64,000 nt of DNA from Auricularia sp. M13 (Eukaryota; Basidiomycota; Agaricomycetes; Auriculariales; Auriculariaceae). Below the pieces are notes generated by a model. It was not told where the DNA came from and did no database searches. It saw only the letters and a list, made by a program, of their open reading frames with translations. The stretch lies in NCBI GenBank assembly GCA_037042915.1, contig CM073196.1, positions 4,464,001-4,528,000 on the forward strand, written 5' to 3'. Below are positions 9,326 through 64,000 of this stretch, piece by piece. Both the position numbers and the translations under genes were made by a program. The first letter of the stretch is position 1; each line of letters starts with the position of its first letter.

Positions 9326-9329
9326 GTTC

Positions 9330-10405: not shown

Positions 10406-10409
10406 CGCC

Positions 10410-36530: not shown

Positions 36531-36533
36531 CTG

Positions 36534-36907
36534 CCTATTAGTATGTCGCCCGATCCTGATAGTATCAGGACAAAAAGCCTCCACAGGGCCTAAATCATGG
36601 GGTATGGGTATGCAATGTACCTAGAAAATTAGGTTTGACCTAGTAGAATGTTTTTCAGTTGGTGCCGGAATTTTTGATGCAATATATGGTAACATGGAGG
36701 ATCACGATTGCCCTTGTCCATCACTTGTTCATCATTTGCTCATCAGTCGCTCATCATTTGTTGATCCCTTGTGCATCACTTGTTGGAATGGAGGATAGCT
36801 GTGGAGCAGGCAGCCGGGCCGACGAGCGCACAAATGATGAACGAGAGCTCAAAAAATGATGGACAAATGATGGACAAATGATGGACAAGGGCTCAACAAG
36901 GGGGTCA
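36534..36907. repeat. relic satellite unit, left-most
   Basis: Begins CCTATTAGTATGTCGCCCG and carries the type A hairpin: TCCTGAT at 36554-36560, loop AGT, ATCAGGA at 36564-36570. It then has GTTGGTGCCGGAATTTT, inverted CATCATTTG-type motifs, and finally several AAATGATGGAC motifs in direct orientation. This is the layout of the first 650 bases of the main satellite, compressed and diverged. Confidence 0.65.
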
Positions 36908-36911
36908 TGAG

Positions 36912-37290
36912 AAAAACGTGCGCACGTGCGCAAGGTGCGTGCGCAACATTAATTCAACCATAGAAGCCCATTTAGATAAGATATTGTCATCGTTGAAGGT
37001 GATTGTGGTAGCTATGATACCATTGCATGTGATTATCCAACAACGGTCATCAAACCTTAAAAATCCACAGAGATATTGTTGATATACACATTTCAACTTG
37101 CGTGCGCACGTGCGCACGTGCGCAAAACTAACGTGCGCCTGCGCACGCACTGCGCACGCATGTTGCAAGTATGCGCACGCAAGTTTGCAAGATGCGCACG
37201 CTATTGAAATGCGTGCGCAAAGATGCTCACGCGCTGTGCACGCAAGTTGGAACCTTGCGCACGCACTCTTGGAACATGCGCACGCAGTCG
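36912..37290. repeat. cluster of TGCGCAC motifs
   Basis: More than a dozen GTGCGCA or TGCGCACG motifs occur here in two groups, at 36,915-36,945 and 37,095-37,285. They are separated by AT-rich sequence and often sit in GTGCGCACGTGCGCA-like alternating runs. Confidence 0.55.
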
Positions 37291-37291
37291 T

Positions 37292-38660: not shown

Positions 38661-38680
38661 GGTTAGGTTAGGTTAGGTTA
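38661..38680 (+). repeat. (GGTTA)4 at the start of X copy 1
   Basis: Four GGTTA units preceded by CTAA. Copy 2 of X has two units (40160-40169) and copy 3 has only a CTAA remnant (41977-41980). Confidence 0.85.
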
Positions 38681-39890: not shown

Positions 39891-40159
39891 TTCATCTTCT
39901 TTGTCGATGTGCAGTCTAACACGGCGTCAGTGTGAGCCTTGCAGGTGCATGACCAGCCCATACGTTCCCCGGAAGGCATGGGAAATTGATGGTTGTTGAC
40001 AGAGCGGCGACTTGAGCGTGCTGGAGTTTGCAGACGGCGCACTGGTGCCGCAGCGCGCAGGGGTTGATTACTTACCATTCCCTGCTCAGTGCTCAGTGCG
40101 TGTCAATATACCGGAACACGGCATGTACGAGGCCGGTGCCCTACCGGTGCTGGGGGTAA
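39891..40159. other. single-copy segment between X copies
   Basis: Not repeated in the window. On the minus strand a GTAAGT at about 40,073 and a short Cys-containing frame hint at an old gene fragment, but nothing can be named. Confidence 0.35.
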
Positions 40160-40445
40160 GGTTAGGTTAATGCTCATAGATGCCTAGAATCTGGCTAGGC
40201 TATTCGACGAAATAATTCGAAGTGATATATTGCCAGATAGCCCTTTTCAATGCGGTCACGATGGTATAGCAAGACTGGGATTTTGATAAGCGCCGGGATG
40301 GGAAATTGCGAAATAGAGTTCCCGATGGACCCGGCATGATCCGGCTTCGTAAAAATATGCTAAATTGGGGGAATATTGGTGGAAAGGTATCCCCAAGGTA
40401 TCATGGGTGGGGGACCACTGGATGCCGGGATATTGATTGTACCTT
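40160..40445. repeat. repeat X, copy 2 (short), with (GGTTA)2
   Basis: Two GGTTA units, then the same sequence as X copy 1 from ATGCTCATAG to TTGTACCTTC. It stops directly at the CCTATTAATATGTCGCCC that starts the type B satellite monomer. Confidence 0.85.
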
Positions 40446-41976
40446 CCTATTAATATGTCGCCCGGATCTCATGGTATGAGATCCAAAAGGTTCCTGCGCC
40501 ACGGAAACGAGGAAGGGGGGCTCGGCGCTGACTCGCAAAATTATGTTGGGCCCGACAGTTCGACTGAGGGTTGGTGCCGGAATTTTGCGAGCCCCACGGC
40601 ACTCTGCGTGCAAAGCGCGTTTTGGCCTTGTCCATCACTTGCCCATCATTTGTCCATCACTTGTCCGCGATTTGTCCATCATTTGTCCGACAAGAGACCG
40701 TCAAGAGCTTCCAGGGACTCCAAATGAGAGCAGACACCCCGACGGCCATATATCTCCGGAAGGCTGACGATCGTGGCTACGCGATGGTGTCGCTACCTCG
40801 GCCGTCCGTTGCCAAAGCAACCCGGAATACCTGCCGATGTCACGAAACCCGGACAAGGAGCCGTATCTCCGCGAGGGGTGCAGCTAAACTCGCGGGACGA
40901 CGAGCGCACGCATTCTGGACGAGAGCCCAACAAATCCCCGACAAATGATGGACAAATGATGGACAAGGCGTCGACAAGGAGCCGTATCTCGACGAGGAGT
41001 GCAGCCGAAACCGCGGGACGAAGACCAAACACGTTCCAGACGTGAGCCCGACCGATTGCCAACAAATGATGGACAAATGATGGACAAGGGACCGACAAGA
41101 GCCAATTGCGACCCCAGTTGGACCCCGATCGTCGGACACCCATATATCTCCGGGGAGCTCTCGCGAGGGTCTACGCGATGGTACCCTTCACGAGGCTGTG
41201 CGCCGTCGTGGCAACGCGCAATTTTCGCCGATGCGACAAAATCCGAAATGGGCGACCGCAGACCCTGCCGAGGTTACCTTCCGGAGTCTTCCCCGCGTGC
41301 TGGACGACCATCCGATGGGCGGTGCCAAAATACGAACCCTGCCGATCGAGTTTTGACTGCGCTGTGAAGTGCCGAAGGCAGATCGGGAGACTCGTGGGAC
41401 CGAGTCAGAGACATCCATATATGACCTGAGAGCTGCCGAAGACGCCGATCCGATGCACTGGAAGCCTGGGATCTGCAGGGACCGTGTCCAGGTGTCCAGA
41501 CCTGATCGCAGTCTGCTGCAAGATCTGCACATGCCAAAGTGTGTCTCGCTTCGTCCCTGGCGCTCGTCGAGGCCTGAAACTTCTCTGCGCACCATGTCGG
41601 GACACTGGGGGCTCATTTGCAGGGGAAACGGCACAAAATCGCAGAATCCGAAGCCCGCCGACGCTGTCGGACTGGCCTCGATTTGGGGGGTTTGCGGGTG
41701 CACGGCTCGGGAGCCTGTCGGTCTGCCCACCGATCGGCCGTGTTTGGCTGGCAGCAGGCAAAAGGACCCTGCCGATAGTCTGAGCATCCTCGACCTTTGG
41801 CCAGGAGAAAGGAAGTCCCACTCAACCGGGGCTGAATACGTTCTTCCGACTTGGTCTCATCAGCAAAGCCGATTGGAAGCGTGCCGGTCTTTCTTGGAGA
41901 TCGGAATGCAGCATGTCGGATCTGCAACGAGGAAAATTCCAGCTCCCCGGAACAGTTTCAACCGTGCGAATGGGTG
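40446..41976. repeat. diverged satellite monomer, type B
   Basis: About 1.53 kb. It starts CCTATTAATATGTCGCCC, then the hairpin arms GGATCTCAT (40464-40472) and ATGAGATCC (40476-40484). Its first 650 bases resemble the main satellite with many differences; the rest, from about 41,150, is closely similar to the array units. It ends at AGTTTCAACCGTGCGAA, where X copy 3 begins. Confidence 0.85.
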
Positions 41977-42984
41977 CTAATGCTCATAGATGCCTAGAAT
42001 CTGGCTAGGCTATTCGACGAAATAATTCGAAGTGATATATTGCCAGATAGCCCTTTTCAATGCGGTCACGATGGTATAGCAAGACTGGGATTTTGATAAG
42101 CGCCGGGATGGGAAATTGCGAAATAGAGTTCCCGATGGACCCGGCATGATCCGGCTTCGTAAAAATATGCTAAATTGGGGGACTATTGGTGGAAAGGTAT
42201 CCCCAAGGTATCATGGGTGGGGGACCACTGGATGCCGGGATATTGATTGTACCTTCCTTATTGGGATGGTATGCATCACTGTTATGTCATTACATGTTCA
42301 CAATGTGAATTTGGAGAACTATAGGAGCAGCAGCAGACTGAATAAAATATTTTAATCAGGTTGAGAAGATATGAGAAACAGGAATTCGAACTATGGTGAA
42401 TGTTGATGACAATAGATTAACATAGTTCATGCAGACACACATGACCGCTGTTGGCTCATCATGCCACTGGCCAGACTGACTCAAGTGTGATCCAGAGGAC
42501 ATGTTCTGCTTGCTGGGGTCTTTGCTTGTGATACCAGGGTCCCTGGCCCAGCGGACTTCAGGCTGGAGCAGCAACTTGGATGCTTCCGGGCCGCCGCCCA
42601 CACATGACTGCTGTTGGCTCATCATGCCACTGGCCAGACTGACTCAAGTGTCATCCAGAGGACATGTTCTGCTTGCTGGGGTCTTTGCTTTTGATACAAG
42701 GGTCCCTGGCCCAGCGGACTTCAGGCTGGAGCAGCAACTTGGATGCTTCCGGGCCGTCGGAAGCATACAAGAAGTTGTATGCTTCCGGGCCGCCGCCCAC
42801 ACATGACCGCTGTTGGCTCATCGTGCCACTGGCCAGACTGACTCAAGTGTCATCCAGAGGACATGTTCTGCTTGCTGGGGTCTTTGCTTTTGATACCAGG
42901 GTCCCTGGCCCAGCGGACTTCAGCCTGGAGCAGCAACTTGGATGCTTCCGGCACCTCCAGCTCCAGCTCACAGCTTCTGTCACC
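41977..42984. repeat. repeat X, copy 3
   Basis: Starts CTAATGCTCATAG and follows copy 1 closely. It includes three tandem units (about 42436, 42599 and 42798; spacings 163 and 199) and one 36 bp hairpin module at 42759-42786. It ends in a short CACCTCCAGCTCCAGC stretch abutting the array. Confidence 0.85.
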
Positions 42985-45900
42985 TCTTAATATGTCGCCC
43001 GATCCTGATGGTATCAGGACGAAAAGCTTCCAGGGGACGCAATATCGGAGATAGCCGGTCGGCGGAACGTCATAAAATTATCGACGCCCTCAGAAAACAT
43101 TCCGGAGTTGGTGCCGGAATTTTGTGTGGCCCGTGGCAGGCTGCGTGCAAAGCGCCTGTCGGCCTTGTCCATCATTTGTGCATCATTTGTGCATCACTTG
43201 TTGATGGCTTGTCCGTCATTTGTTGATGGCTTGTCCATCATTTGTTGGCCCGGTTGGTGTGAAGCCAATGCACCGAGTTGAACGCGGACAACGAACAAAG
43301 TCGACACGAACGACAGGCAAGAGGCCAGCAAATGATGGACGAGAGCCCAGCAAATCACCAACGAATGATGGACAAATGATGAACAAGGCGTCGACAAGGA
43401 GCCGTATCTCCGCGAGGGGAGCAGCTAAACTCGCGGGACGACGAGCGAACGCATTCTGGACGAGAGCCCAACGAATCACCAACGAATGATGAACAAATGA
43501 TGGACAAGAGCTCAACAAGGAGCCGTAGCGCAACGAGGAGTGCAGCTGAAACCGCGGGACGAAGAGCAAACCCATTCCAGACATGCAGCCGACCGATCAC
43601 CAACAAATGATGGACAAATGATGGACGAGGGACCGACAAGAGCCAATTGCGACCCCAACTGGATCCCGATCGCCGGACACCCATATAACTCCGGGGAGCT
43701 CTCGCCGAGGTCTACGCGATGGTACCCTTCGCGAGGCTGTGCGCCGTCATGGCAACGCGCAATTTCCGCCGATGCGACAAAATCCGAAATGGGCGACCGC
43801 AGACCCTGCCGAGGTTACCTTCCGGAGTCTTCCCGGCGTGCTGGACGACCACCCGATGGGCGGTGCCAAAATACGAACCCTGCCGATCGAGTTTTGACTG
43901 CGCTGTGAAGTGCCGAAGGCAGATCGGGAGACTCGTGGGACCGAGTCAGAGACATCCATATATGACCTGAGAGCTGCCGAAGACGCCGATCCGATGCACT
44001 GGAAGCCTGGGATCTGCAGGGACCGTGTCCAGGTGTCCAGACCTGATCTCACTCTGCCGCAGGATTTGCAGATGCCAAACTGGGTCTGGCTTCGTCCCTG
44101 GCGCTCGTCGAGGCCTGAAACTTCTCTGCGCACCATGTCGGGACACTGGGGGCTCAGATCCAGGGGAAAAGGCACAAAATCGCAGAATCCGAAGCCCGCC
44201 GACGCTGTCGGACTGGCCTCGATTTGGGGCTTTGGGGGTGCGCGGCTCGGGAGCCTGTTCGGTCTGCCCCACCGATCGGCTGTGTTTGGCTGGCAGAAGG
44301 CAAAAGGACTCTGCCGATAGTCTGAGCATCCTCGACCTTTGGCCAGGAGAAAGGAAGTCACACTCAACCGGGGCTGAATACGTTCTTCCGACTTGGTTTC
44401 GTCAGCTAAGCCGATTGGAAGCGTGCCCATCTTTCTCGGCGATCGTGATGCCGCATGTCTGATCTGCAACGAGAAAAATTCCAGCTCCCCGGAACAGTTT
44501 CAACCGTGCGAATCGGTGCACCGGTCGTGCCGCTGCGAGTCGGCCGAGGTCCCAGAACATCTTAATATGTCGCCCGATCCTGATGGTATCAGGACGAAAA
44601 GCTTCCAGGGGACGCAATATCGGAGATAGCCGGTCGGCGGAACGTCATAAAATTATCGACGCCCTCAGAAAACATTCCGGAGTTGGTGCCGGAATTTTGT
44701 GTGGCCCGTGGCAGGCTGCGTGCAAAGCGCCTGTCGGCCTTGTCCATCATTTGTGCATCATTTGTGCATCACTTGTTGATGGCTTGTCCGTCATTTGTTG
44801 ATGGCTTGTCCATCATTTGTTGGCCCGGTTGGTGTGAAGCCAATGCACCGAGTTGAACGCGGACAACGAACAAAGTCGACACGAACGACAGGCAAGAGGC
44901 CAGCAAATGATGGACGAGAGCCCAGCAAATCACCAACGAATGATGGACAAATGATGAACAAGGCGTCGACAAGGAGCCGTATCTCCGCGAGGGGAGCAGC
45001 TAAACTCGCGGGACGACGAGCGAACGCATTCTGGACGAGAGCCCAACGAATCACCAACGAATGATGAACAAATGATGGACAAGAGCTCAACAAGGAGCCG
45101 TAGCGCAACGAGGAGTGCAGCTGAAACCGCGGGACGAAGAGCAAACCCATTCCAGACATGCAGCCGACCGATCACCAACAAATGATGGACAAATGATGGA
45201 CGAGGGACCGACAAGAGCCAATTGCGACCCCAACTGGATCCCGATCGCCGGACACCCATATACCTCCGGGGAGCTCTCGCCGAGGTCTACGCGATGGTAC
45301 CCTTCGCGAGGCTGTGCGCCGTCATGGCAACGCGCAATTTCCGCCGATGCGACAAAATCCGAAATGGGCGACCGCAGACCCTGCCGAGGTTACCTTCCGG
45401 AGTCTTCCCGGCGTGCTGGACGACCACCCGATGGGCGGTGCCAAAATACGAACCCTGCCGATCGAGTTTTGACTGCGCTGTGAAGTGCCGAAGGCAGATC
45501 GGGAGACTCGTGGGACCGAGTCAGAGACATCCATATATGACCTGAGAGCTGCCGAAGACGCCGATCCGATGCACTGGAAGCCTGGGATCTGCAGGGACCG
45601 TGTCCAGGTGTCCAGACCTGATCTCACTCTGCCGCAGGATTTGCAGATGCCAAACTGGGTCTGGCTTCGTCCCTGGCGCTCGTCGAGGCCTGAAACTTCT
45701 CTGCGCACCATGTCGGGACACTGGGGGCTCAGATCCAGGGGAAAAGGCACAAAATCGCAGAATCCGAAGCCCGCCGACGCTGTCGGACTGGCCTCGATTT
45801 GGGGCTTTGGGGGTGCGCGGCTCGGGAGCCTGTTCGGTCTGCCCCACCGATCGGCTGTGTTTGGCTGGCAGAAGGCAAAAGGACTCTGCCGATAGTCTGA

Positions 45901-48900
45901 GCATCCTCGACCTTTGGCCAGGAGAAAGGAAGTCACACTCAACCGGGGCTGAATACGTTCTTCCGACTTGGTTTCGTCAGCTAAGCCGATTGGAAGCGTG
46001 CCCATCTTTCTCGGCGATCGTGATGCCGCATGTCTGATCTGCAACGAGAAAAATTCCAGCTCCCGGAACAGTTTCAACCGTGCGAATCGGTGCACCGGTC
46101 GTGCCGCTGCGAGTCGGCCGAGGTCCCAGAACATCTTAATATGTCGCCCGATCCTGATGGTATCAGGACGAAAAGCTTCCAGGGGACGCAATATCGGAGA
46201 TAGCCGGTCGGCGGAACGTCATAAAATTATCGACGCCCTCAGAAAACATTCCGGAGTTGGTGCCGGAATTTTGTGTGGCCCGTGGCAGGCTGCGTGCAAA
46301 GCGCCTGTCGGCCTTGTCCATCATTTGTGCATCATTTGTGCATCACTTGTTGATGGCTTGTCCGTCATTTGTTGATGGCTTGTCCATCATTTGTTGGCCC
46401 GGTTGGTGTGAAGCCAATGCACCGAGTTGAACGCGGACAACGAACAAAGTCGACACGAACGACAGGCAAGAGGCCAGCAAATGATGGACGAGAGCCCAGC
46501 AAATCACCAACGAATGATGGACAAATGATGAACAAGGCGTCGACAAGGAGCCGTATCTCCGCGAGGGGAGCAGCTAAACTCGCGGGACGACGAGCGAACG
46601 CATTCTGGACGAGAGCCCAACGAATCACCAACGAATGATGAACAAATGATGGACAAGAGCTCAACAAGGAGCCGTAGCGCAACGAGGAGTGCAGCTGAAA
46701 CCGCGGGACGAAGAGCAAACCCATTCCAGACATGCAGCCGACCGATCACCAACAAATGATGGACAAATGATGGACGAGGGACCGACAAGAGCCAATTGCG
46801 ACCCCAACTGGATCCCGATCGCCGGACACCCATATACCTCCGGGGAGCTCTCGCCGAGGTCTACGCGATGGTACCCTTCGCGAGGCTGTGCGCCGTCATG
46901 GCAACGCGCAATTTCCGCCGATGCGACAAAATCCGAAATGGGCGACCGCAGACCCTGCCGAGGTTACCTTCCGGAGTCTTCCCGGCGTGCTGGACGACCA
47001 CCCGATGGGCGGTGCCAAAATACGAACCCTGCCGATCGAGTTTTGACTGCGCTGTGAAGTGCCGAAGGCAGATCGGGAGACTCGTGGGACCGAGTCAGAG
47101 ACATCCATATATGACCTGAGAGCTGCCGAAGACGCCGATCCGATGCACTGGAAGCCTGGGATCTGCAGGGACCGTGTCCAGGTGTCCAGACCTGATCTCA
47201 CTCTGCCGCAGGATTTGCAGATGCCAAACTGGGTCTGGCTTCGTCCCTGGCGCTCGTCGAGGCCTGAAACTTCTCTGCGCACCATGTCGGGACACTGGGG
47301 GCTCAGATCCAGGGGAAAAGGCACAAAATCGCAGAATCCGAAGCCCGCCGACGCTGTCGGACTGGCCTCGATTTGGGGCTTTGGGGGTGCGCGGCTCGGG
47401 AGCCTGTTCGGTCTGCCCCACCGATCGGCTGTGTTTGGCTGGCAGAAGGCAAAAGGACTCTGCCGATAGTCTGAGCATCCTCGACCTTTGGCCAGGAGAA
47501 AGGAAGTCACACTCAACCGGGGCTGAATACGTTCTTCCGACTTGGTTTCGTCAGCTAAGCCGATTGGAAGCGTGCCCATCTTTCTCGGCGATCGTGATGC
47601 CGCATGTCTGATCTGCAACGAGAAAAATTCCAGCTCCCCGGAACAGTTTCAACCGTGCGAATCGGTGCACCGGTCGTGCCGCTGCGAGTCGGCCGAGGTC
47701 CCAGAACATCTTAATATGTCGCCCGATCCTGATGGTATCAGGACGAAAAGCTTCCAGGGGACGCAATATCGGAGATAGCCGGTCGGCGGAACGTCATAAA
47801 ATTATCGACGCCCTCAGAAAACATTCCGGAGTTGGTGCCGGAATTTTGTGTGGCCCGTGGCAGGCTGCGTGCAAAGCGCCTGTCGGCCTTGTCCATCATT
47901 TGTGCATCATTTGTGCATCACTTGTTGATGGCTTGTCCGTCATTTGTTGATGGCTTGTCCATCATTTGTTGGCCCGGTTGGTGTGAAGCCAATGCACCGA
48001 GTTGAACGCGGACAACGAACAAAGTCGACACGAACGACAGGGGCAAGAGGCCAGCAAATGATGGACGAGAGCCCAGCAAATCACCAACGAATGATGGACA
48101 AATGATGAACAAGGCGTCGACAAGGAGCCGTATCTCCGCGAGGGGAGCAGCTAAACTCGCGGGACGACGAGCGAACGCATTCTGGACGAGAGCCCAACGA
48201 ATCACCAACGAATGATGAACAAATGATGGACAAGAGCTCAACAAGGAGCCGTAGCGCAACGAGGAGTGCAGCTGAAACCGCGGGACGAAGAGCAAACCCA
48301 TTCCAGACATGCAGCCGACCGATCACCAACAAATGATGGACAAATGATGGACGAGGGACCGACAAGAGCCAATTGCGACCCCAACTGGATCCCGATCGCC
48401 GGACACCCATATACCTCCGGGGAGCTCTCGCCGAGGTCTACGCGATGGTACCCTTCGCGAGGCTGTGCGCCGTCATGGCAACGCGCAATTTCCGCCGATG
48501 CGACAAAATCCGAAATGGGCGACCGCAGACCCTGCCGAGGTTACCTTCCGGAGTCTTCCCGGCGTGCTGGACGACCACCCGATGGGCGGTGCCAAAATAC
48601 GAACCCTGCCGATCGAGTTTTGACTGCGCTGTGAAGTGCCGAAGGCAGATCGGGAGACTCGTGGGACCGAGTCAGAGACATCCATATATGACCTGAGAGC
48701 TGCCGAAGACGCCGATCCGATGCACTGGAAGCCTGGGATCTGCAGGGACCGTGTCCAGGTGTCCAGACCTGATCTCACTCTGCCGCAGGATTTGCAGATG
48801 CCAAACTGGGTCTGGCTTCGTCCCTGGCGCTCGTCGAGGCCTGAAACTTCTCTGCGCACCATGTCGGGACACTGGGGGCTCAGATCCAGGGGAAAAGGCA

Positions 48901-51900
48901 CAAAATCGCAGAATCCGAAGCCCGCCGACGCTGTCGGACTGGCCTCGATTTGGGGCTTTGGGGGTGCGCGGCTCGGGAGCCTGTTCGGTCTGCCCCACCG
49001 ATCGGCTGTGTTTGGCTGGCAGAAGGCAAAAGGACTCTGCCGATAGTCTGAGCATCCTCGACCTTTGGCCAGGAGAAAGGAAGTCACACTCAACCGGGGC
49101 TGAATACGTTCTTCCGACTTGGTTTCGTCAGCTAAGCCGATTGGAAGCGTGCCCATCTTTCTCGGCGATCGTGATGCCGCATGTCTGATCTGCAACGAGA
49201 AAAATTCCAGCTCCCCGGAACAGTTTCAACCGTGCGAATCGGTGCACCGGTCGTGCCGCTGCGAGTCGGCCGAGGTCCCAGAACATCTTAATATGTCGCC
49301 CGATCCTGATGGTATCAGGACGAAAAGCTTCCAGGGGACGCAATATCGGAGATAGCCGGTCGGCGGAACGTCATAAAATTATCGACGCCCTCAGAAAACA
49401 TTCCGGAGTTGGTGCCGGAATTTTGTGTGGCCCGTGGCAGGCTGCGTGCAAAGCGCCTGTCGGCCTTGTCCATCATTTGTGCATCATTTGTGCATCACTT
49501 GTTGATGGCTTGTCCGTCATTTGTTGATGGCTTGTCCATCATTTGTTGGCCCGGTTGGTGTGAAGCCAATGCACCGAGTTGAACGCGGACAACGAACAAA
49601 GTCGACACGAACGACAGGCAAGAGGCCAGCAAATGATGGACGAGAGCCCAGCAAATCACCAACGAATGATGGACAAATGATGAACAAGGCGTCGACAAGG
49701 AGCCGTATCTCCGCGAGGGGAGCAGCTAAACTCGCGGGACGACGAGCGAACGCATTCTGGACGAGAGCCCAACGAATCACCAACGAATGATGAACAAATG
49801 ATGGACAAGAGCTCAACAAGGAGCCGTAGCGCAACGAGGAGTGCAGCTGAAACCGCGGGACGAAGAGCAAACCCATTCCAGACATGCAGCCGACCGATCA
49901 CCAACAAATGATGGACAAATGATGGACGAGGGACCGACAAGAGCCAATTGCGACCCCAACTGGATCCCGATCGCCGGACACCCATATACCTCCGGGGAGC
50001 TCTCGCCGAGGTCTACGCGATGGTACCCTTCGCGAGGCTGTGCGCCGCCGTCATGGCAACGCGCAATTTCCGCCGATGCGACAAAATCCGAAATGGGCGA
50101 CCGCAGACCCTGCCGAGGTTACCTTCCGGAGTCTTCCCGGCGTGCTGGACGACCACCCGATGGGCGGTGCCAAAATACGAACCCTGCCGATCGAGTTTTG
50201 ACTGCGCTGTGAAGTGCCGAAGGCAGATCGGGAGACTCGTGGGACCGAGTCAGAGACATCCATATATGACCTGAGAGCTGCCGAAGACGCCGATCCGATG
50301 CACTGGAAGCCTGGGATCTGCAGGGACCGTGTCCAGGTGTCCAGACCTGATCTCACTCTGCCGCAGGATTTGCAGATGCCAAACTGGGTCTGGCTTCGTC
50401 CCTGGCGCTCGTCGAGGCCTGAAACTTCTCTGCGCACCATGTCGGGACACTGGGGGCTCAGATCCAGGGGAAAAGGCACAAAATCGCAGAATCCGAAGCC
50501 CGCCGACGCTGTCGGACTGGCCTCGATTTGGGGCTTTGGGGGTGCGCGGCTCGGGAGCCTGTTCGGTCTGCCCCACCGATCGGCTGTGTTTGGCTGGCAG
50601 AAGGCAAAAGGACTCTGCCGATAGTCTGAGCATCCTCGACCTTTGGCCAGGAGAAAGGAAGTCACACTCAACCGGGGCTGAATACGTTCTTCCGACTTGG
50701 TTTCGTCAGCTAAGCCGATTGGAAGCGTGCCCATCTTTCTCGGCGATCGTGATGCCGCATGTCTGATCTGCAACGAGAAAAATTCCAGCTCCCCGGAACA
50801 GTTTCAACCGTGCGAATCGGTGCACCGGTCGTGCCGCTGCGAGTCGGCCGAGGTCCCAGAACATCTTAATATGTCGCCCGATCCTGATGGTATCAGGACG
50901 AAAAGCTTCCAGGGGACGCAATATCGGAGATAGCCGGTCGGCGGAACGTCATAAAATTATCGACGCCCTCAGAAAACATTCCGGAGTTGGTGCCGGAATT
51001 TTGTGTGGCCCGTGGCAGGCTGCGTGCAAAGCGCCTGTCGGCCTTGTCCATCATTTGTGCATCATTTGTGCATCACTTGTTGATGGCTTGTCCGTCATTT
51101 GTTGATGGCTTGTCCATCATTTGTTGGCCCGGTTGGTGTGAAGCCAATGCACCGAGTTGAACGCGGACAACGAACAAAGTCGACACGAACGACAGGCAAG
51201 AGGCCAGCAAATGATGGACGAGAGCCCAGCAAATCACCAACGAATGATGGACAAATGATGAACAAGGCGTCGACAAGGAGCCGTATCTCCGCGAGGGGAG
51301 CAGCTAAACTCGCGGGACGACGAGCGAACGCATTCTGGACGAGAGCCCAACGAATCACCAACGAATGATGAACAAATGATGGACAAGAGCTCAACAAGGA
51401 GCCGTAGCGCAACGAGGAGTGCAGCTGAAACCGCGGGACGAAGAGCAAACCCATTCCAGACATGCAGCCGACCGATCACCAACAAATGATGGACAAATGA
51501 TGGACGAGGGACCGACAAGAGCCAATTGCGACCCCAACTGGATCCCGATCGCCGGACACCCATATACCTCCGGGGAGCTCTCGCCGAGGTCTACGCGATG
51601 GTACCCTTCGCGAGGCTGTGCGCCGTCATGGCAACGCGCAATTTCCGCCGATGCGACAAAATCCGAAATGGGCGACCGCAGACCCTGCCGAGGTTACCTT
51701 CCGGAGTCTTCCCGGCGTGCTGGACGACCACCCGATGGGCGGTGCCAAAATACGAACCCTGCCGATCGAGTTTTGACTGCGCTGTGAAGTGCCGAAGGCA
51801 GATCGGGAGACTCGTGGGACCGAGTCAGAGACATCCATATATGACCTGAGAGCTGCCGAAGACGCCGATCCGATGCACTGGAAGCCTGGGATCTGCAGGG

Positions 51901-54900
51901 ACCGTGTCCAGGTGTCCAGACCTGATCTCACTCTGCCGCAGGATTTGCAGATGCCAAACTGGGTCTGGCTTCGTCCCTGGCGCTCGTCGAGGCCTGAAAC
52001 TTCTCTGCGCACCATGTCGGGACACTGGGGGCTCAGATCCAGGGGAAAAGGCACAAAATCGCAGAATCCGAAGCCCGCCGACGCTGTCGGACTGGCCTCG
52101 ATTTGGGGCTTTGGGGGTGCGCGGCTCGGGAGCCTGTTCGGTCTGCCCCACCGATCGGCTGTGTTTGGCTGGCAGAAGGCAAAAGGACTCTGCCGATAGT
52201 CTGAGCATCCTCGACCTTTGGCCAGGAGAAAGGAAGTCACACTCAACCGGGGCTGAATACGTTCTTCCGACTTGGTTTCGTCAGCTAAGCCGATTGGAAG
52301 CGTGCCCATCTTTCTCGGCGATCGTGATGCCGCATGTCTGATCTGCAACGAGAAAAATTCCAGCTCCCCGGAACAGTTTCAACCGTGCGAATCGGTGCAC
52401 CGGTCGTGCCGCTGCGAGTCGGCCGAGGTCCCAGAACATCTTAATATGTCGCCCGATCCTGATGGTATCAGGACGAAAAGCTTCCAGGGGACGCAATATC
52501 GGAGATAGCCGGTCGGCGGAACGTCATAAAATTATCGACGCCCTCAGAAAACATTCCGGAGTTGGTGCCGGAATTTTGTGTGGCCCGTGGCAGGCTGCGT
52601 GCAAAGCGCCTGTCGGCCTTGTCCATCATTTGTGCATCATTTGTGCATCACTTGTTGATGGCTTGTCCGTCATTTGTTGATGGCTTGTCCATCATTTGTT
52701 GGCCCGGTTGGTGTGAAGCCAATGCACCGAGTTGAACGCGGACAACGAACAAAGTCGACACGAACGACAGGCAAGAGGCCAGCAAATGATGGACGAGAGC
52801 CCAGCAAATCACCAACGAATGATGGACAAATGATGAACAAGGCGTCGACAAGGAGCCGTATCTCCGCGAGGGGAGCAGCTAAACTCGCGGGACGACGAGC
52901 GAACGCATTCTGGACGAGAGCCCAACGAATCACCAACGAATGATGAACAAATGATGGACAAGAGCTCAACAAGGAGCCGTAGCGCAACGAGGAGTGCAGC
53001 TGAAACCGCGGGACGAAGAGCAAACCCATTCCAGACATGCAGCCGACCGATCACCAACAAATGATGGACAAATGATGGACGAGGGACCGACAAGAGCCAA
53101 TTGCGACCCCAACTGGATCCCGATCGCCGGACACCCATATACCTCCGGGGAGCTCTCGCCGAGGTCTACGCGATGGTACCCTTCGCGAGGCTGTGCGCCG
53201 TCATGGCAACGCGCAATTTCCGCCGATGCGACAAAATCCGAAATGGGCGACCGCAGACCCTGCCGAGGTTACCTTCCGGAGTCTTCCCGGCGTGCTGGAC
53301 GACCACCCGATGGGCGGTGCCAAAATACGAACCCTGCCGATCGAGTTTTGACTGCGCTGTGAAGTGCCGAAGGCAGATCGGGAGACTCGTGGGACCGAGT
53401 CAGAGACATCCATATATGACCTGAGAGCTGCCGAAGACGCCGATCCGATGCACTGGAAGCCTGGGATCTGCAGGGACCGTGTCCAGGTGTCCAGACCTGA
53501 TCTCACTCTGCCGCAGGATTTGCAGATGCCAAACTGGGTCTGGCTTCGTCCCTGGCGCTCGTCGAGGCCTGAAACTTCTCTGCGCACCATGTCGGGACAC
53601 TGGGGGCTCAGATCCAGGGGAAAAGGCACAAAATCGCAGAATCCGAAGCCCGCCGACGCTGTCGGACTGGCCTCGATTTGGGGCTTTGGGGTGCGCGGCT
53701 CGGGAGCCTGTTCGGTCTGCCCCACCGATCGGCTGTGTTTGGCTGGCAGAAGGCAAAAGGACTCTGCCGATAGTCTGAGCATCCTCGACCTTTGGCCAGG
53801 AGAAAGGAAGTCACACTCAACCGGGGCTGAATACGTTCTTCCGACTTGGTTTCGTCAGCTAAGCCGATTGGAAGCGTGCCCATCTTTCTCGGCGATCGTG
53901 ATGCCGCATGTCTGATCTGCAACGAGAAAAATTCCAGCTCCCCGGAACAGTTTCAACCGTGCGAATCGGTGCACCGGTCGTGCCGCTGCGAGTCGGCCGA
54001 GGTCCCAGAACATCTTAATATGTCGCCCGATCCTGATGGTATCAGGACGAAAAGCTTCCAGGGGACGCAATATCGGAGATAGCCGGTCGGCGGAACGTCA
54101 TAAAATTATCGACGCCCTCAGAAAACATTCCGGAGTTGGTGCCGGAATTTTGTGTGGCCCGTGGCAGGCTGCGTGCAAAGCGCCTGTCGGCCTTGTCCAT
54201 CATTTGTGCATCATTTGTGCATCACTTGTTGATGGCTTGTCCGTCATTTGTTGATGGCTTGTCCATCATTTGTTGGCCCGGTTGGTGTGAAGCCAATGCA
54301 CCGAGTTGAACGCGGACAACGAACAAAGTCGACACGAACGACAGGCAAGAGGCCAGCAAATGATGGACGAGAGCCCAGCAAATCACCAACGAATGATGGA
54401 CAAATGATGAACAAGGCGTCGACAAGGAGCCGTATCTCCGCGAGGGGAGCAGCTAAACTCGCGGGACGACGAGCGAACGCATTCTGGACGAGAGCCCAAC
54501 GAATCACCAACGAATGATGAACAAATGATGGACAAGAGCTCAACAAGGAGCCGTAGCGCAACGAGGAGTGCAGCTGAAACCGCGGGACGAAGAGCAAACC
54601 CATTCCAGACATGCAGCCGACCGATCACCAACAAATGATGGACAAATGATGGACGAGGGACCGACAAGAGCCAATTGCGACCCCAACTGGATCCCGATCG
54701 CCGGACACCCATATAACTCCGGGGAGCTCTCGCCGAGGTCTACGCGATGGTACCCTTCGCGAGGCTGTGCGCCGTCATGGCAACGCGCAATTTCCGCCGA
54801 TGCGACAAAATCCGAAATGGGCGACCGCAGACCCTGCCGAGGTTACCTTCCGGAGTCTTCCCGGCGTGCTGGACGACCACCCGATGGGCGGTGCCAAAAT

Positions 54901-57900
54901 ACGAACCCTGCCGATCGAGTTTTGACTGCGCTGTGAAGTGCCGAAGGCAGATCGGGAGACTCGTGGGACCGAGTCAGAGACATCCATATATGACCTGAGA
55001 GCTGCCGAAGACGCCGATCCGATGCACTGGAAGCCTGGGATCTGCAGGGACCGTGTCCAGGTGTCCAGACCTGATCTCACTCTGCCGCAGGATTTGCAGA
55101 TGCCAAACTGGGTCTGGCTTCGTCCCTGGCGCTCGTCGAGGCCTGAAACTTCTCTGCGCACCATGTCGGGACACTGGGGGCTCAGATCCAGGGGAAAAGG
55201 CACAAAATCGCAGAATCCGAAGCCCGCCGACGCTGTCGGACTGGCCTCGATTTGGGGCTTTGGGGTGCGCGGCTCGGGAGCCTGTTCGGTCTGCCCCACC
55301 GATCGGCTGTGTTTGGCTGGCAGAAGGCAAAAGGACTCTGCCGATAGTCTGAGCATCCTCGACCTTTGGCCAGGAGAAAGGAAGTCACACTCAACCGGGG
55401 CTGAATACGTTCTTCCGACTTGGTTTCGTCAGCTAAGCCGATTGGAAGCGTGCCCATCTTTCTCGGCGATCGTGATGCCGCATGTCTGATCTGCAACGAG
55501 AAAAATTCCAGCTCCCCGGAACAGTTTCAACCGTGCGAATCGGTGCACCGGTCGTGCCGCTGCGAGTCGGCCGAGGTCCCAGAACATCTTAATATGTCGC
55601 CCGATCCTGATGGTATCAGGACGAAAAGCTTCCAGGGGACGCAATATCGGAGATAGCCGGTCGGCGGAACGTCATAAAATTATCGACGCCCTCAGAAAAC
55701 ATTCCGGAGTTGGTGCCGGAATTTTGTGTGGCCCGTGGCAGGCTGCGTGCAAAGCGCCTGTCGGCCTTGTCCATCATTTGTGCATCATTTGTGCATCACT
55801 TGTTGATGGCTTGTCCGTCATTTGTTGATGGCTTGTCCATCATTTGTTGGCCCGGTTGGTGTGAAGCCAATGCACCGAGTTGAACGCGGACAACGAACAA
55901 AGTCGACACGAACGACAGGCAAGAGGCCAGCAAATGATGGACGAGAGCCCAGCAAATCACCAACGAATGATGGACAAATGATGAACAAGGCGTCGACAAG
56001 GAGCCGTATCTCCGCGAGGGGAGCAGCTAAACTCGCGGGACGACGAGCGAACGCATTCTGGACGAGAGCCCAACGAATCACCAACGAATGATGAACAAAT
56101 GATGGACAAGAGCTCAACAAGGAGCCGTAGCGCAACGAGGAGTGCAGCTGAAACCGCGGGACGAAGAGCAAACCCATTCCAGACATGCAGCCGACCGATC
56201 ACCAACAAATGATGGACAAATGATGGACGAGGGACCGACAAGAGCCAATTGCGACCCCAACTGGATCCCGATCGCCGGACACCCATATAACTCCGGGGAG
56301 CTCTCGCCGAGGTCTACGCGATGGTACCCTTCGCGAGGCTGTGCGCCGTCATGGCAACGCGCGCAATTTCCGCCGATGCGACAAAATCCGAAATGGGCGA
56401 CCGCAGACCCTGCCGAGGTTACCTTCCGGAGTCTTCCCGGCGTGCTGGACGACCACCCGATGGGCGGTGCCAAAATACGAACCCTGCCGATCGAGTTTTG
56501 ACTGCGCTGTGAAGTGCCGAAGGCAGATCGGGAGACTCGTGGGACCGAGTCAGAGACATCCATATATGACCTGAGAGCTGCCGAAGACGCCGATCCGATG
56601 CACTGGAAGCCTGGGATCTGCAGGGACCGTGTCCAGGTGTCCAGACCTGATCTCACTCTGCCGCAGGATTTGCAGATGCCAAACTGGGTCTGGCTTCGTC
56701 CCTGGCGCTCGTCGAGGCCTGAAACTTCTCTGCGCACCATGTCGGGACACTGGGGGCTCAGATCCAGGGGAAAAGGCACAAAATCGCAGAATCCGAAGCC
56801 CGCCGACGCTGTCGGACTGGCCTCGATTTGGGGCTTTGGGGGTGCGCGGCTCGGGAGCCTGTTCGGTCTGCCCCACCGATCGGCTGTGTTTGGCTGGCAG
56901 AAGGCAAAAGGACTCTGCCGATAGTCTGAGCATCCTCGACCTTTGGCCAGGAGAAAGGAAGTCACACTCAACCGGGGCTGAATACGTTCTTCCGACTTGG
57001 TTTCGTCAGCTAAGCCGATTGGAAGCGTGCCCATCTTTCTCGGCGATCGTGATGCCGCATGTCTGATCTGCAACGAGAAAAATTCCAGCTCCCGGAACAG
57101 TTTCAACCGTGCGAATCGGTGCACCGGTCGTGCCGCTGCGAGTCGGCCGAGGTCCCAGAACATCTTAATATGTCGCCCGATCCTGATGGTATCAGGACGA
57201 AAAGCTTCCAGGGGACGCAATATCGGAGATAGCCGGTCGGCGGAACGTCATAAAATTATCGACGCCCTCAGAAAACATTCCGGAGTTGGTGCCGGAATTT
57301 TGTGTGGCCCGTGGCAGGCTGCGTGCAAAGCGCCTGTCGGCCTTGTCCATCATTTGTGCATCATTTGTGCATCACTTGTTGATGGCTTGTCCGTCATTTG
57401 TTGATGGCTTGTCCATCATTTGTTGGCCCGGTTGGTGTGAAGCCAATGCACCGAGTTGAACGCGGACAACGAACAAAGTCGACACGAACGACAGGCAAGA
57501 GGCCAGCAAATGATGGACGAGAGCCCAGCAAATCACCAACGAATGATGGACAAATGATGAACAAGGCGTCGACAAGGAGCCGTATCTCCGCGAGGGGAGC
57601 AGCTAAACTCGCGGGACGACGAGCGAACGCATTCTGGACGAGAGCCCAACGAATCACCAACGAATGATGAACAAATGATGGACAAGAGCTCAACAAGGAG
57701 CCGTAGCGCAACGAGGAGTGCAGCTGAAACCGCGGGACGAAGAGCAAACCCATTCCAGACATGCAGCCGACCGATCACCAACAAATGATGGACAAATGAT
57801 GGACGAGGGACCGACAAGAGCCAATTGCGACCCCAACTGGATCCCGATCGCCGGACACCCATATAACTCCGGGGAGCTCTCGCCGAGGTCTACGCGATGG

Positions 57901-60900
57901 TACCCTTCGCGAGGCTGTGCGCCGTCATGGCAACGCGCAATTTCCGCCGATGCGACAAAATCCGAAATGGGCGACCGCAGACCCTGCCGAGGTTACCTTC
58001 CGGAGTCTTCCCGGCGTGCTGGACGACCACCCGATGGGCGGTGCCAAAATACGAACCCTGCCGATCGAGTTTTGACTGCGCTGTGAAGTGCCGAAGGCAG
58101 ATCGGGAGACTCGTGGGACCGAGTCAGAGACATCCATATATGACCTGAGAGCTGCCGAAGACGCCGATCCGATGCACTGGAAGCCTGGGATCTGCAGGGA
58201 CCGTGTCCAGGTGTCCAGACCTGATCTCACTCTGCCGCAGGATTTGCAGATGCCAAACTGGGTCTGGCTTCGTCCCTGGCGCTCGTCGAGGCCTGAAACT
58301 TCTCTGCGCACCATGTCGGGACACTGGGGGCTCAGATCCAGGGGAAAAGGCACAAAATCGCAGAATCCGAAGCCCGCCGACGCTGTCGGACTGGCCTCGA
58401 TTTGGGGCTTTGGGGTGCGCGGCTCGGGAGCCTGTTCGGTCTGCCCCACCGATCGGCTGTGTTTGGCTGGCAGAAGGCAAAAGGACTCTGCCGATAGTCT
58501 GAGCATCCTCGACCTTTGGCCAGGAGAAAGGAAGTCACACTCAACCGGGGCTGAATACGTTCTTCCGACTTGGTTTCGTCAGCTAAGCCGATTGGAAGCG
58601 TGCCCATCTTTCTCGGCGATCGTGATGCCGCATGTCTGATCTGCAACGAGAAAAATTCCAGCTCCCGGAACAGTTTCAACCGTGCGAATCGGTGCACCGG
58701 TCGTGCCGCTGCGAGTCGGCCGAGGTCCCAGAACATCTTAATATGTCGCCCGATCCTGATGGTATCAGGACGAAAAGCTTCCAGGGGACGCAATATCGGA
58801 GATAGCCGGTCGGCGGAACGTCATAAAATTATCGACGCCCTCAGAAAACATTCCGGAGTTGGTGCCGGAATTTTGTGTGGCCCGTGGCAGGCTGCGTGCA
58901 AAGCGCCTGTCGGCCTTGTCCATCATTTGTGCATCATTTGTGCATCACTTGTTGATGGCTTGTCCGTCATTTGTTGATGGCTTGTCCATCATTTGTTGGC
59001 CCGGTTGGTGTGAAGCCAATGCACCGAGTTGAACGCGGACAACGAACAAAGTCGACACGAACGACAGGCAAGAGGCCAGCAAATGATGGACGAGAGCCCA
59101 GCAAATCACCAACGAATGATGGACAAATGATGAACAAGGCGTCGACAAGGAGCCGTATCTCCGCGAGGGGAGCAGCTAAACTCGCGGGACGACGAGCGAA
59201 CGCATTCTGGACGAGAGCCCAACGAATCACCAACGAATGATGAACAAATGATGGACAAGAGCTCAACAAGGAGCCGTAGCGCAACGAGGAGTGCAGCTGA
59301 AACCGCGGGACGAAGAGCAAACCCATTCCAGACATGCAGCCGACCGATCACCAACAAATGATGGACAAATGATGGACGAGGGACCGACAAGAGCCAATTG
59401 CGACCCCAACTGGATCCCGATCGCCGGACACCCATATAACTCCGGGGAGCTCTCGCCGAGGTCTACGCGATGGTACCCTTCGCGAGACTGTGCGCCGTCA
59501 TGGCAACGCGCAATTTCCGCCGATGCGACAAAATCCGAAATGGGCGACCGCAGACCCTGCCGAGGTTACCTTCCGGAGTCTTCCCGGCGTGCTGGACGAC
59601 CACCCGATGGGCGGTGCCAAAATACGAACCCTGCCGATCGAGTTTTGACTGCGCTGTGAAGTGCCGAAGGCAGATCGGGAGACTCGTGGGACCGAGTCAG
59701 AGACATCCATATATGACCTGAGAGCTGCCGAAGACGCCGATCCGATGCACTGGAAGCCTGGGATCTGCAGGGACCGTGTCCAGGTGTCCAGACCTGATCT
59801 CACTCTGCCGCAGGATTTGCAGATGCCAAACTGGGTCTGGCTTCGTCCCTGGCGCTCGTCGAGGCCTGAAACTTCTCTGCGCACCATGTCGGGACACTGG
59901 GGGCTCAGATCCAGGGGAAAAGGCACAAAATCGCAGAATCCGAAGCCCGCCGACGCTGTCGGACTGGCCTCGATTTGGGGCTTTGGGGGTGCGCGGCTCG
60001 GGAGCCTGTTCGGTCTGCCCCACCGATCGGCTGTGTTTGGCTGGCAGAAGGCAAAAGGACTCTGCCGATAGTCTGAGCATCCTCGACCTTTGGCCAGGAG
60101 AAAGGAAGTCACACTCAACCGGGGCTGAATACGTTCTTCCGACTTGGTTTCGTCAGCTAAGCCGATTGGAAGCGTGCCCATCTTTCTCGGCGATCGTGAT
60201 GCCGCATGTCTGATCTGCAACGAGAAAAATTCCAGCTCCCCGGAACAGTTTCAACCGTGCGAATCGGTGCACCGGTCGTGCCGCTGCGAGTCGGCCGAGG
60301 TCCCAGAACATCTTAATATGTCGCCCGATCCTGATGGTATCAGGACGAAAAGCTTCCAGGGGACGCAATATCGGAGATAGCCGGTCGGCGGAACGTCATA
60401 AAATTATCGACGCCCTCAGAAAACATTCCGGAGTTGGTGCCGGAATTTTGTGTGGCCCGTGGCAGGCTGCGTGCAAAGCGCCTGTCGGCCTTGTCCATCA
60501 TTTGTGCATCATTTGTGCATCACTTGTTGATGGCTTGTCCGTCATTTGTTGATGGCTTGTCCATCATTTGTTGGCCCGGTTGGTGTGAAGCCAATGCACC
60601 GAGTTGAACGCGGACAACGAACAAAGTCGACACGAACGACAGGCAAGAGGCCAGCAAATGATGGACGAGAGCCCAGCAAATCACCAACGAATGATGGACA
60701 AATGATGAACAAGGCGTCGACAAGGAGCCGTATCTCCGCGAGGGGAGCAGCTAAACTCGCGGGACGACGAGCGAACGCATTCTGGACGAGAGCCCAACGA
60801 ATCACCAACGAATGATGAACAAATGATGGACAAGAGCTCAACAAGGAGCCGTAGCGCAACGAGGAGTGCAGCTGAAACCGCGGGACGAAGAGCAAACCCA

Positions 60901-63900
60901 TTCCAGACATGCAGCCGACCGATCACCAACAAATGATGGACAAATGATGGACGAGGGACCGACAAGAGCCAATTGCGACCCCAACTGGATCCCGATCGCC
61001 GGACACCCATATAACTCCGGGGAGCTCTCGCCGAGGTCTACGCGATGGTACCCTTCGCGAGACTGTGCGCCGTCATGGCAACGCGCAATTTCCGCCGATG
61101 CGACAAAATCCGAAATGGGCGACCGCAGACCCTGCCGAGGTTACCTTCCGGAGTCTTCCCGGCGTGCTGGACGACCACCCGATGGGCGGTGCCAAAATAC
61201 GAACCCTGCCGATCGAGTTTTGACTGCGCTGTGAAGTGCCGAAGGCAGATCGGGAGACTCGTGGGACCGAGTCAGAGACATCCATATATGACCTGAGAGC
61301 TGCCGAAGACGCCGATCCGATGCACTGGAAGCCTGGGATCTGCAGGGACCGTGTCCAGGTGTCCAGACCTGATCTCACTCTGCCGCAGGATTTGCAGATG
61401 CCAAACTGGGTCTGGCTTCGTCCCTGGCGCTCGTCGAGGCCTGAAACTTCTCTGCGCACCATGTCGGGACACTGGGGGCTCAGATCCAGGGGAAAAGGCA
61501 CAAAATCGCAGAATCCGAAGCCCGCCGACGCTGTCGGACTGGCCTCGATTTGGGGCTTTGGGGGTGCGCGGCTCGGGAGCCTGTTCGGTCTGCCCCACCG
61601 ATCGGCTGTGTTTGGCTGGCAGAAGGCAAAAGGACTCTGCCGATAGTCTGAGCATCCTCGACCTTTGGCCAGGAGAAAGGAAGTCACACTCAACCGGGGC
61701 TGAATACGTTCTTCCGACTTGGTTTCGTCAGCTAAGCCGATTGGAAGCGTGCCCATCTTTCTCGGCGATCGTGATGCCGCATGTCTGATCTGCAACGAGA
61801 AAAATTCCAGCTCCCGGAACAGTTTCAACCGTGCGAATCGGTGCACCGGTCGTGCCGCTGCGAGTCGGCCGAGGTCCCAGAACATCTTAATATGTCGCCC
61901 GATCCTGATGGTATCAGGACGAAAAGCTTCCAGGGGACGCAATATCGGAGATAGCCGGTCGGCGGAACGTCATAAAATTATCGACGCCCTCAGAAAACAT
62001 TCCGGAGTTGGTGCCGGAATTTTGTGTGGCCCGTGGCAGGCTGCGTGCAAAGCGCCTGTCGGCCTTGTCCATCATTTGTGCATCATTTGTGCATCACTTG
62101 TTGATGGCTTGTCCGTCATTTGTTGATGGCTTGTCCATCATTTGTTGGCCCGGTTGGTGTGAAGCCAATGCACCGAGTTGAACGCGGACAACGAACAAAG
62201 TCGACACGAACGACAGGCAAGAGGCCAGCAAATGATGGACGAGAGCCCAGCAAATCACCAACGAATGATGGACAAATGATGAACAAGGCGTCGACAAGGA
62301 GCCGTATCTCCGCGAGGGGAGCAGCTAAACTCGCGGGACGACGAGCGAACGCATTCTGGACGAGAGCCCAACGAATCACCAACGAATGATGAACAAATGA
62401 TGGACAAGAGCTCAACAAGGAGCCGTAGCGAAACGAGGAGTGCAGCTGAAACCGCGGGACGAAGAGCAAACCCATTCCAGACATGCAGCCGACCGATCAC
62501 CAACAAATGATGGACAAATGATGGACGAGGGACCGACAAGAGCCAATTGCGACCCCAACTGGATCCCGATCGCCGGACACCCATATAACTCCGGGAGCTC
62601 TCGCCGAGGTCTACGCGATGGTACCCTTCGCGAGACTGTGCGCCGTCATGGCAACGCGCAATTTCCGCCGATGCGACAAAATCCGAAATGGGCGACCGCA
62701 GACCCTGCCGAGGTTACCTTCCGGAGTCTTCCCGGCGTGCTGGACGACCACCCGATGGGCGGTGCCAAAATACGAACCCTGCCGATCGAGTTTTGACTGC
62801 GCTGTGAAGTGCCGAAGGCAGATCGGGAGACTCGTGGGACCGAGTCAGAGACATCCATATATGACCTGAGAGCTGCCGAAGACGCCGATCCGATGCACTG
62901 GAAGCCTGGGATCTGCAGGGACCGTGTCCAGGTGTCCAGACCTGATCTCACTCTGCCGCAGGATTTGCAGATGCCAAACTGGGTCTGGCTTCGTCCCTGG
63001 CGCTCGTCGAGGCCTGAAACTTCTCTGCGCACCATGTCGGGACACTGGGGGCTCAGATCCAGGGGAAAAGGCACAAAATCGCAGAATCCGAAGCCCGCCG
63101 ACGCTGTCGGACTGGCCTCGATTTGGGGCTTTGGGGGTGCGCGGCTCGGGAGCCTGTTCGGTCTGCCCCACCGATCGGCTGTGTTTGGCTGGCAGAAGGC
63201 AAAAGGACTCTGCCGATAGTCTGAGCATCCTCGACCTTTGGCCAGGAGAAAGGAAGTCACACTCAACCGGGGCTGAATACGTTCTTCCGACTTGGTTTCG
63301 TCAGCTAAGCCGATTGGAAGCGTGCCCATCTTTCTCGGCGATCGTGATGCCGCATGTCTGATCTGCAACGAGAAAAATTCCAGCTCCCGGAACAGTTTCA
63401 ACCGTGGATCTCGGTGCACCGGTCGTGCCGCTGATGCAGTCGGCCGAGGTCCCAGAACATCTTAATATGTGCCCGATCCTGATGGTATCAGGACGAAAAG
63501 CTTCCAGGGGACGCAATATCGGAGATAGCCGGTCATTTGCAGGCGGAACGTCATAAAATTATCGACGCCCTCAGAAAACATTCCGGAGTTGGTGCCGAAT
63601 TTTGTGTGGCCCGTGGCAGGCTGCGTGCAAAGCGCCTGTCGGCCTTGTCCATCATTTGTGCATCATTTGTGCATCACTTGTTGATGGCTTGTCCGTCATT
63701 TGTTGATGGCTTGTCCATCATTTGTTGGCCCGGTTGGTGTGAAGCCAATGCACCGAGTTGAACGCGGACAACGAACAAAGTCGACACGAACGACAGGCAA
63801 GAGGCCAGCAAATGATGGACGAGAGCCCAGCAAATCACCAACGAATGATGGACAAATGATGAACAAGGCGTCGACAAGGAGCCGTATCTCCGCGAGGGGA

Positions 63901-63947
63901 GCAGCTAAACTCGCGGGACGACGAGCGAACGCATTCTGGACGAGAGC
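42985..63947. repeat. satellite array, 13 full units of about 1,575 bp plus a partial unit
   Basis: Unit starts (CTTAATATGTCGCCCGATCC) lie at 42985, 44561, 46135, 47709, 49286, 50864, 52439, 54013, 55587, 57163, 58736, 60311 and 61885, with a partial unit from 63459. Unit lengths are 1,573-1,578 bp and differences are mostly single bases or short indels. Each unit has the hairpin TCCTGAT/ATCAGGA near +18 to +34, five CATCATTTG-type motifs near +180 to +265, and seven AAATGATGGAC-type motifs near +344 to +641. An internal repeat of about 115 bp begins ACAAGGAGCCGTA. Open frames of up to 368 codons occur on both strands in overlapping frames with no family resemblance, so I do not annotate genes. 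Confidence 0.95.
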
Positions 63948-64000
63948 CCTATTAATATGTCGCCCGGATCTCATGGTATGAGATCCAAAAGGTTCCTGCG
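63948..64000. repeat. start of another type B unit at the right edge
   Basis: CCTATTAATATGTCGCCC, the GGATCTCAT/ATGAGATCC hairpin (63966-63986) and AAAAGGTTCCTGCG match 40446-40498 exactly as far as the window goes. The junction cuts the last array unit after about 490 bases. Confidence 0.85.

Follow-up and report, generated by a model that had tools for sequence, protein, structure and literature searches.

Bacterial IS91/ISCR elements move by one-ended rolling-circle transposition, Coprina is a telomere-attached Penelope-like element, and among the MoTeR retrotransposons of Magnaporthe oryzae MoTeR2 has the same terminus as the longer MoTeR1. Here we compare these systems, together with Helitrons, with a satellite array of the basidiomycete Auricularia sp. 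M13. The analyzed stretch, termed the window, comprises 64,000 nucleotides (GenBank assembly GCA_037042915.1, contig CM073196.1; C4:4464001-4528000 in our numbering) of a genome assembly of 52.1 Mb in 14 contigs, and its array A consists of head-to-tail units of 1,575 bp. We propose, on sequence evidence, that array A consists of concatenated copies of a non-autonomous mobile element, added at the chromosome end by a rolling-circle enzyme, a reading to which, taken jointly and graded loosely, we would assign a probability of about 0.5.

According to the excerpts of the papers cited here, Helitrons target AT (canonical) or TT/TNAT (Helitron2) (PMC4067079, PMC4289320, PMC5148889), with insertion at AT described for Pleurotus Helitrons (PMC4289320) and 5′ hairpins for fungal Helitron2 (PMC5148889). 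Their left end is essential and their right end dispensable, with read-through and head-to-tail circles (PMC4778049), and tandem arrays arise from bypassed terminators (PMC4067079). Penelope-like elements and RecQ helicase genes have been reported at the chromosome ends of Agaricus bisporus (PMC7473861). Judged by its titles and abstract openings, the literature consulted holds no visible description of the system presented below.

Results

Array A lies at 42985..63949 on the plus strand and comprises 13 full units and a partial one. The unit starts (42985, 44560, 46134 ... 61885) follow one another head-to-tail, and the unit length ranges from 1573 to 1578 bp (n = 13), in agreement with the ~21 kb of nearly identical 1,575-bp units noticed in a preceding sequence-only reading. 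The closing partial unit of ~0.3 unit (63460-63949) is cut at unit position 481. The extent given by that reading holds for array A itself but not for the tandem region, as a related array B of 13.6 units (1,558–1,565 bp) adjoins at 63950. Array B starts with TATTAATATG after CC, occupies 63950..64000 of the window on the plus strand and continues outside it to C4e 85130, where C4e denotes window coordinates prolonged past 64,000 to the end of contig C4. It is followed by an A-like piece, A′ (C4e 85131-85945), and by a D block distal to it (from C4e 85946). The contig terminates in (TTAGG)n at C4e 87741, that is 87.7 kb from the window start. Array A lies 44.8 to 23.8 kb from this telomeric end and, with the contig read to its end, turns out to be half of a 42-kb tandem region ending ~2.6 kb before the telomere. 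As a homogenised tandem array adjoining a telomere it is a subtelomeric satellite, one of the locations considered beforehand.

Across its 13 full units array A has 21 variable alignment columns, 12 with short indels, many of which lie within homopolymer runs and could be sequencing errors, and 9 with substitutions. Seven of the nine substitution columns are restricted to the last unit, one is common to units A2–A7 and one to A11–A13. The corresponding 13 units of array B show 27 variable columns (20 indels, 7 substitutions). An ordinary subtelomeric satellite, grown by unequal crossing-over and inflated or misjoined in the assembly, would account for the near-identity of the units; the near-equal size of arrays A and B (13.3 and 13.6 units) could reflect read length, and the last unit of A is where sequence quality may drop. 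We nevertheless regard this as very unlikely, since the same contig reaches the telomere, the head is also found on many contigs, both in single copies and in other arrays, and the joint rule described below is valid for all types.

Array A belongs to a family of three satellites, A (1,575 bp), B (~1,561 bp) and F (1,151 bp), with a common body and different heads. The same head plan was found in A, B and F, in block D and in an old copy, E: a terminus T[AC]TTA[ACG]TATGTCGCC, a hairpin and CCATCA iterons, the terminus consensus of all types being T[AC]TTA[ACG]TATGTC[AG]CC. In the first A unit the terminus TCTTAATATGTCGCC (42985..42999, plus strand) stands right after CC (42983-42984) and recurs at every full unit start; the hairpin TCCTGAT-GGT-ATCAGGA is at 43003..43019 on the plus strand, and the iteron region at 43164..43630 contains 11-bp motifs such as CTTGTCCATCA, first in plus orientation and then inverted (core CCATCA/TGATGG). 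The hairpin sequence varies among A, A′, B, D, E and F, yet its pairing is mostly kept: A and E have 7 pairs, B has 9 and D has 10. The hairpin of A, B and D is followed by the motif AAAAG[CG]TTCC, of which E, F and the C11 copy of D carry variants. The iteron core is present 10 times in the A unit compared to 0.66 times in shuffles. Counted within 0.8 kb, CCATCA or its inverse occurs 10 times in A, 8 times in B, 6 times in F and 25 times in D, against 0.5–0.9 in shuffles; the same core is also held by the hairpin apex of A and F. Whole-genome copy counts are lower bounds throughout, and the motif TTAATATGTCGCC has at least 199 occurrences, compared to 2 for its reversed control. Five TTABTATGTCGCC sites (C1:89871, C1:9180509, C3:1770223, C7:305937 and C9:2131373) considered as heads have no hairpin or tail and were judged to be chance matches.

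We then counted joints at all block starts in the sequences read that have a full head and a joint other than a unit end. This yielded 31 rows, of which one (L042) was dropped, being an array joint at a contig edge whose flank is only 7 bp long. Out of the resulting 30 independent full-head starts 29 lie directly after CC; the probability of at least 29 such cases by chance is 5e-33 at a CC frequency of 0.0685. Within arrays, the 36 joints read GA (19), CA (14) and CC (3, all in F), and the unit ends read GAACA, GAAGA and GAACC. As the within-array joints are mostly GA or CA, for A and B the CC belongs to the target; the F arrays do not separate target from unit end. A unit whose head makes precise joints on many different flanks also supports the earlier suggestion of a selfish array.

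These joints bear directly on break-induced replication with gene conversion among subtelomeres, where an eroded end would invade another and copy outward, the head would be a mere hotspot (e.g. a nick or fork-pause site), and arrays would grow by unequal exchange or by rolling-circle copying of recombination circles. Excerpts of work on MoTeR ends propose break-induced copying and circle-templated array growth there (PMC7367193), the variants shared by A2–A7 and A11–A13 are those expected from local duplication, and long stretches behind D are common to C2, C7 and C9 at about 95–100%. Alone, such copying leaves the exact start of the head after CC on differing flanks unexplained, and we consider it improbable as the full account; break-induced and rolling-circle array growth may well contribute here too.

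Telomere-side block ends are variable, and a common head marks where nearly all of the blocks read begin on their inner side. At nested joints the remainder of the interrupted block is gone in all seven readable cases, and telomere tracts are buried between some blocks. Together with the CC joints, these features suggest that blocks were added in succession at the chromosome tip, each head-first and on an end that had lost its outer part.

Block D is present at seven places with differing flanks. On C9 and C2 it contains a plus-strand multi-exon gene with weak similarity to DUF659 (hAT-like; E 2.7e-4, below the curated cut-off), the separate frames of which gave no Pfam match. A minus-strand Ty3-like gag-pol follows D on C2 and C7. 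The Ty3-like element occurs at no fewer than three places over the full query with at least 88% protein identity, none of them more than 80 kb from a contig end, and a fourth, broken match (83–88%) is at C2 2.23 Mb. Its relative on C12 (88%, protein) shares its hairpin and the adjoining GGGAGGGCG-ATG-AAG, beyond which, as read by eye, it continues into LTR-like sequence; blastn found no match, and an LTR pair was not shown. The Ty3-like element behind D is hence probably an ordinary LTR element. Because the C12 relative runs past the same hairpin into LTR-like sequence, we rejected D as a giant composite with its own Ty3-like polymerase and abandoned a natural end of D at the start of the B array on C9. 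At C7 ~18554 (L013) we observed an internal deletion behind a D head with a telomere-like insert, TTAACCTAACC, at its joint.

The block geometry and the Ty3-like sequence both invite a comparison with terminal reverse transcription, in which a minus-strand RNA with a 3′ hairpin would be copied onto an exposed chromosome 3′ end, as in Terminons, MoTeRs and HeT-A, giving precise head joints, 5′-truncated outer ends and, from tandem or circular RNA, arrays. A fixed end inward, truncation outward, head-to-tail stacks and buried telomere tracts are likewise described in the excerpts on Terminons (PMC6431247) and MoTeRs (PMC7367193). The hairpin would sit close to the 3′ end of the presumed RNA, the mismatches of A and A′ turn into G-U pairs on the minus strand, and the gag-pol behind D on C2 and C7 is on that strand as well. 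However, this gag-pol resembles an ordinary LTR element (from the C12 relative, by eye), the hAT-like gene in D is on the other strand and keeps its introns, block starts follow CC and not TTAGG, and the iterons would have no obvious role. Rfam gave no ribozyme match at gathering in the window, and in 36400-46200 all five matches with E up to 5 were below gathering and none was a ribozyme. Apart from the probable LTR element no linked reverse transcriptase was seen, a statement made without a genome-wide search for Penelope-type or non-LTR elements. We consider terminal reverse transcription unlikely.

The body common to A, B and F (43647..44559 in the first unit, plus strand; start approximate, from the alignment with F) looks non-coding from its sequence. 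B and A are ~92% identical over the last 1.17 kb, the first 0.4 kb of B being its own. Substitutions are evenly spread over the codon positions (11, 10, 14 for A/B; 25, 25, 26 for A/F), and Pfam gave no match up to E 1 for a 298-aa frame. The longest frame of A (250 aa) is above 95% of 100 shuffles (235) and below their maximum (275), whereas those of B and F (225 and 209 aa) do not exceed 95% of shuffles. A coding unit is thus not supported, as the sequence-only reading had anticipated. Its description of the unit as highly structured stands for the iteron half (plus-strand RNA fold against 20 shuffles, z −5.0) and fails for the other half (z +1.95), and the GC content, called balanced in that reading, is 57%.

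Homology to rDNA or to a transposon had been named as grounds for dismissing the array. In the window no Rfam family reached its gathering cut-off, and rRNA genes and known RNAs were discarded as the identity of the array. The mobile-element-like kinship that we infer does touch on the second ground, and it explains the array rather than dismissing it. A family search for 5.8S rRNA found no match in the whole assembly, from which rDNA may be absent.

Classed by their outermost 400 bases, 9 of the 28 contig ends fall within A/B/F/D satellite (C3R, C4L, C5R, C7L, C7R, C9R, C10R, C11R and C13L), 3 in telomere (C2R, C4R and C5L) and 16 in neither. The telomere repeat is mainly TTAGG at all three telomeric ends, with some TTGGG and TTAGGG variants (C4e 87685-87741; L040 278-400; L025 1-290); a repeat of five bases is uncommon in fungal telomeres. 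Satellite F has 17 starts at the C7 right end, 4 at the C10 right end and 10 at the C13 left end, and at C13:4073-9469 two short 390-bp intervals spaced three full units apart occur among the 1.15-kb F intervals. End-proximal heads point outward among the matches listed, except D and B at C5:58 kb.

A centromeric satellite, also considered in the sequence-only reading, would find some support mid-contig on C2 (2.43-2.61 Mb), where a plus-strand array of ~55 B units (2434989-2520746) opposes minus-strand blocks (2592443-2612920). These opposed sets look like a possible chromosome end-to-end fusion or a misjoin, the window array adjoins a telomere, and nine of the 28 contig ends lie within these satellites; on location, a centromeric role of array A is extremely unlikely.

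Proximal to array A, the window contains a lone older B-type copy (40448..41977, plus strand) with its head after CC and a truncated telomere-side end, and, innermost in the stack, the head-type block E (36536..36900, end approximate, plus strand) with TATTAGTATGTCGCC, hairpin and iterons. A 163-bp minisatellite is found within Z blocks at 39137-39854 and 42436-42951. In the outer parts of two further loci (L057 and L058) another block type starts with GGTTATAGAGGGGGTTCCAGG right after TTAGGG/TTAGG-like tracts and is perhaps a second telomere-attached element besides Z. Separate from the array, the stretch 8245-16043 is GC-rich with many short tandem repeats and long repetitive frames.

To relate the family to the resident Helitrons, we used Helitron_like_N, which has at least 51 genome matches. 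The head motif is absent from the four Rep loci read, and no Rep locus is near heads among the matches listed, so that a Helitron partner bearing the same head was rejected. Eight resident Helitron 5′ regions (L080, L081, L083-L088) read CACC[AG]ACT (one AACC) after T, then a large hairpin, mostly with a G-run; at a third Rep locus (L082) such a region was not seen. With up to 2 mismatches the search pattern gave 21 matches against 32 for the reversed control, and because the control outnumbered it only the eight sites with 0-1 mismatch were used. Their flanks follow neither a CC nor an AT rule. A hairpin beside the 5′ end, a Helitron2 trait, is present in each head type and also in the resident Helitron copies.

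Discussion

Head-first mobile addition at the chromosome terminus is, in our view, likely. That the enzyme was of the rolling-circle type, with a Helitron2-like mechanism favored, is more tentative and falls slightly short of even odds; Helitrons are the closest model among eukaryotes. In such a mechanism a sequence-specific enzyme would bind iterons and hairpin and cut at the head, and the displaced strand would be joined by its 5′ end to the chromosome, at a 3′ end or nick that ends in CC. Copying would then proceed one-endedly in rolling-circle fashion with no second defined end, like Helitrons bypassing their terminator. Repeated rounds on a circular donor of 1.15-1.58 kb would produce a head-to-tail satellite; circles of 1.57, 1.56 and 1.15 kb would carry the joints CA-TCTTAATATG, GA-TATTAATATG and CC-TCTTACTATG, respectively. 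Linear donor DNA behind the head would give a long block such as D, and telomerase would seal the resulting end.

Several observations weigh against this proposal. No Rep/helicase gene is near any listed head, the nearest pair among the matches listed being ~49 kb apart (C7:38863 vs C7:87551), none of the eight resident Helitron copies starts after CC, and neither a CTRR-type nor another defined 3′ terminus was seen in the family. The sole gene seen within any head block has hAT-like similarity and is not that of a rolling-circle enzyme. One of the 30 counted starts follows TC (C11:3196790); outside the count are three degenerate joints in C2:2592443-2599243, which begin at unit positions 13-19, and a headless B fragment on C7 (~21707-21442), which begins at unit position 119. 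The first two bases of the head are mostly TC in A, A′ and F and TA in B, D, E and two F-like copies, and a single mismatch interrupts the hairpin of A′ and of the commonest F form. Wobble pairs suit the minus strand in A and A′ but the plus strand in one F copy, and so do not discriminate between the hairpin strands. Finally, the D and B blocks at C5:58 kb face inward, and blocks also lie far inside contigs (C1 1.08 Mb, C2 2.43-2.61 Mb, C6 0.94 Mb and C11 2.01 Mb).

A further possibility, which we regard as doubtful, is an undescribed class of telomere-end transposition, in which an enzyme joins the hairpin-iteron head one-endedly to CC at broken or eroded ends. Any DNA behind the head, linear or circular, would then become the chromosome cap, and the hAT-like protein carried by D could even be the enzyme. 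If true, this class would provide, alongside telomerase, a selfish means of healing ends and would generate satellite DNA directly.

The origin of a long satellite and its jumping between chromosome ends are rarely visible in sequence. Here the exact joints, the common head plan and the buried telomere tracts, which give a partial order of events, make a subtelomeric satellite origin directly testable. If the head rule is enzymatic, DNA would have a further route onto chromosome ends, beside telomerase and telomeric retrotransposons. The chromosome ends of this fungus appear to have been capped repeatedly in this head-first manner, so that the layers at their tips would document earlier breaks and repairs.

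Among the described systems, Terminons, i.e. telomere-attached Penelope-like elements (Athena), share with the satellite family the head-to-tail end stacks, the structured proximal end, the truncated distal end and telomere tracts between blocks; the family differs in its CC joint in place of telomere repeats, in that Rfam found no hammerhead, and in its satellites of 1.1-1.6 kb. MoTeR1/MoTeR2 resemble it in telomere-end arrays, distal truncation and internal relics, but are retrotransposons joined to TTAGGG tracts, whereas the head joints of the family are without a telomere tract. IS91/ISCR is a bacterial system, and no IS91-type enzyme is shown for the family; the two are alike in one precise end at a short fixed target, a variable other end and the capture of neighboring DNA. 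We do not file the family under Helitron, as no RepHel is linked to the heads listed and neither its target nor its 3′ end is that of a Helitron. From Helitron2/Helentron (FoHeli in Fusarium; DINE-1/HINE) it differs by its CC target, no linked Rep-helicase at the heads listed, no second defined end, its concentration at chromosome ends and its iterons, while it shares with them the 5′-end hairpin, one precise end with read-through at the other, non-autonomous copies and tandem arrays.

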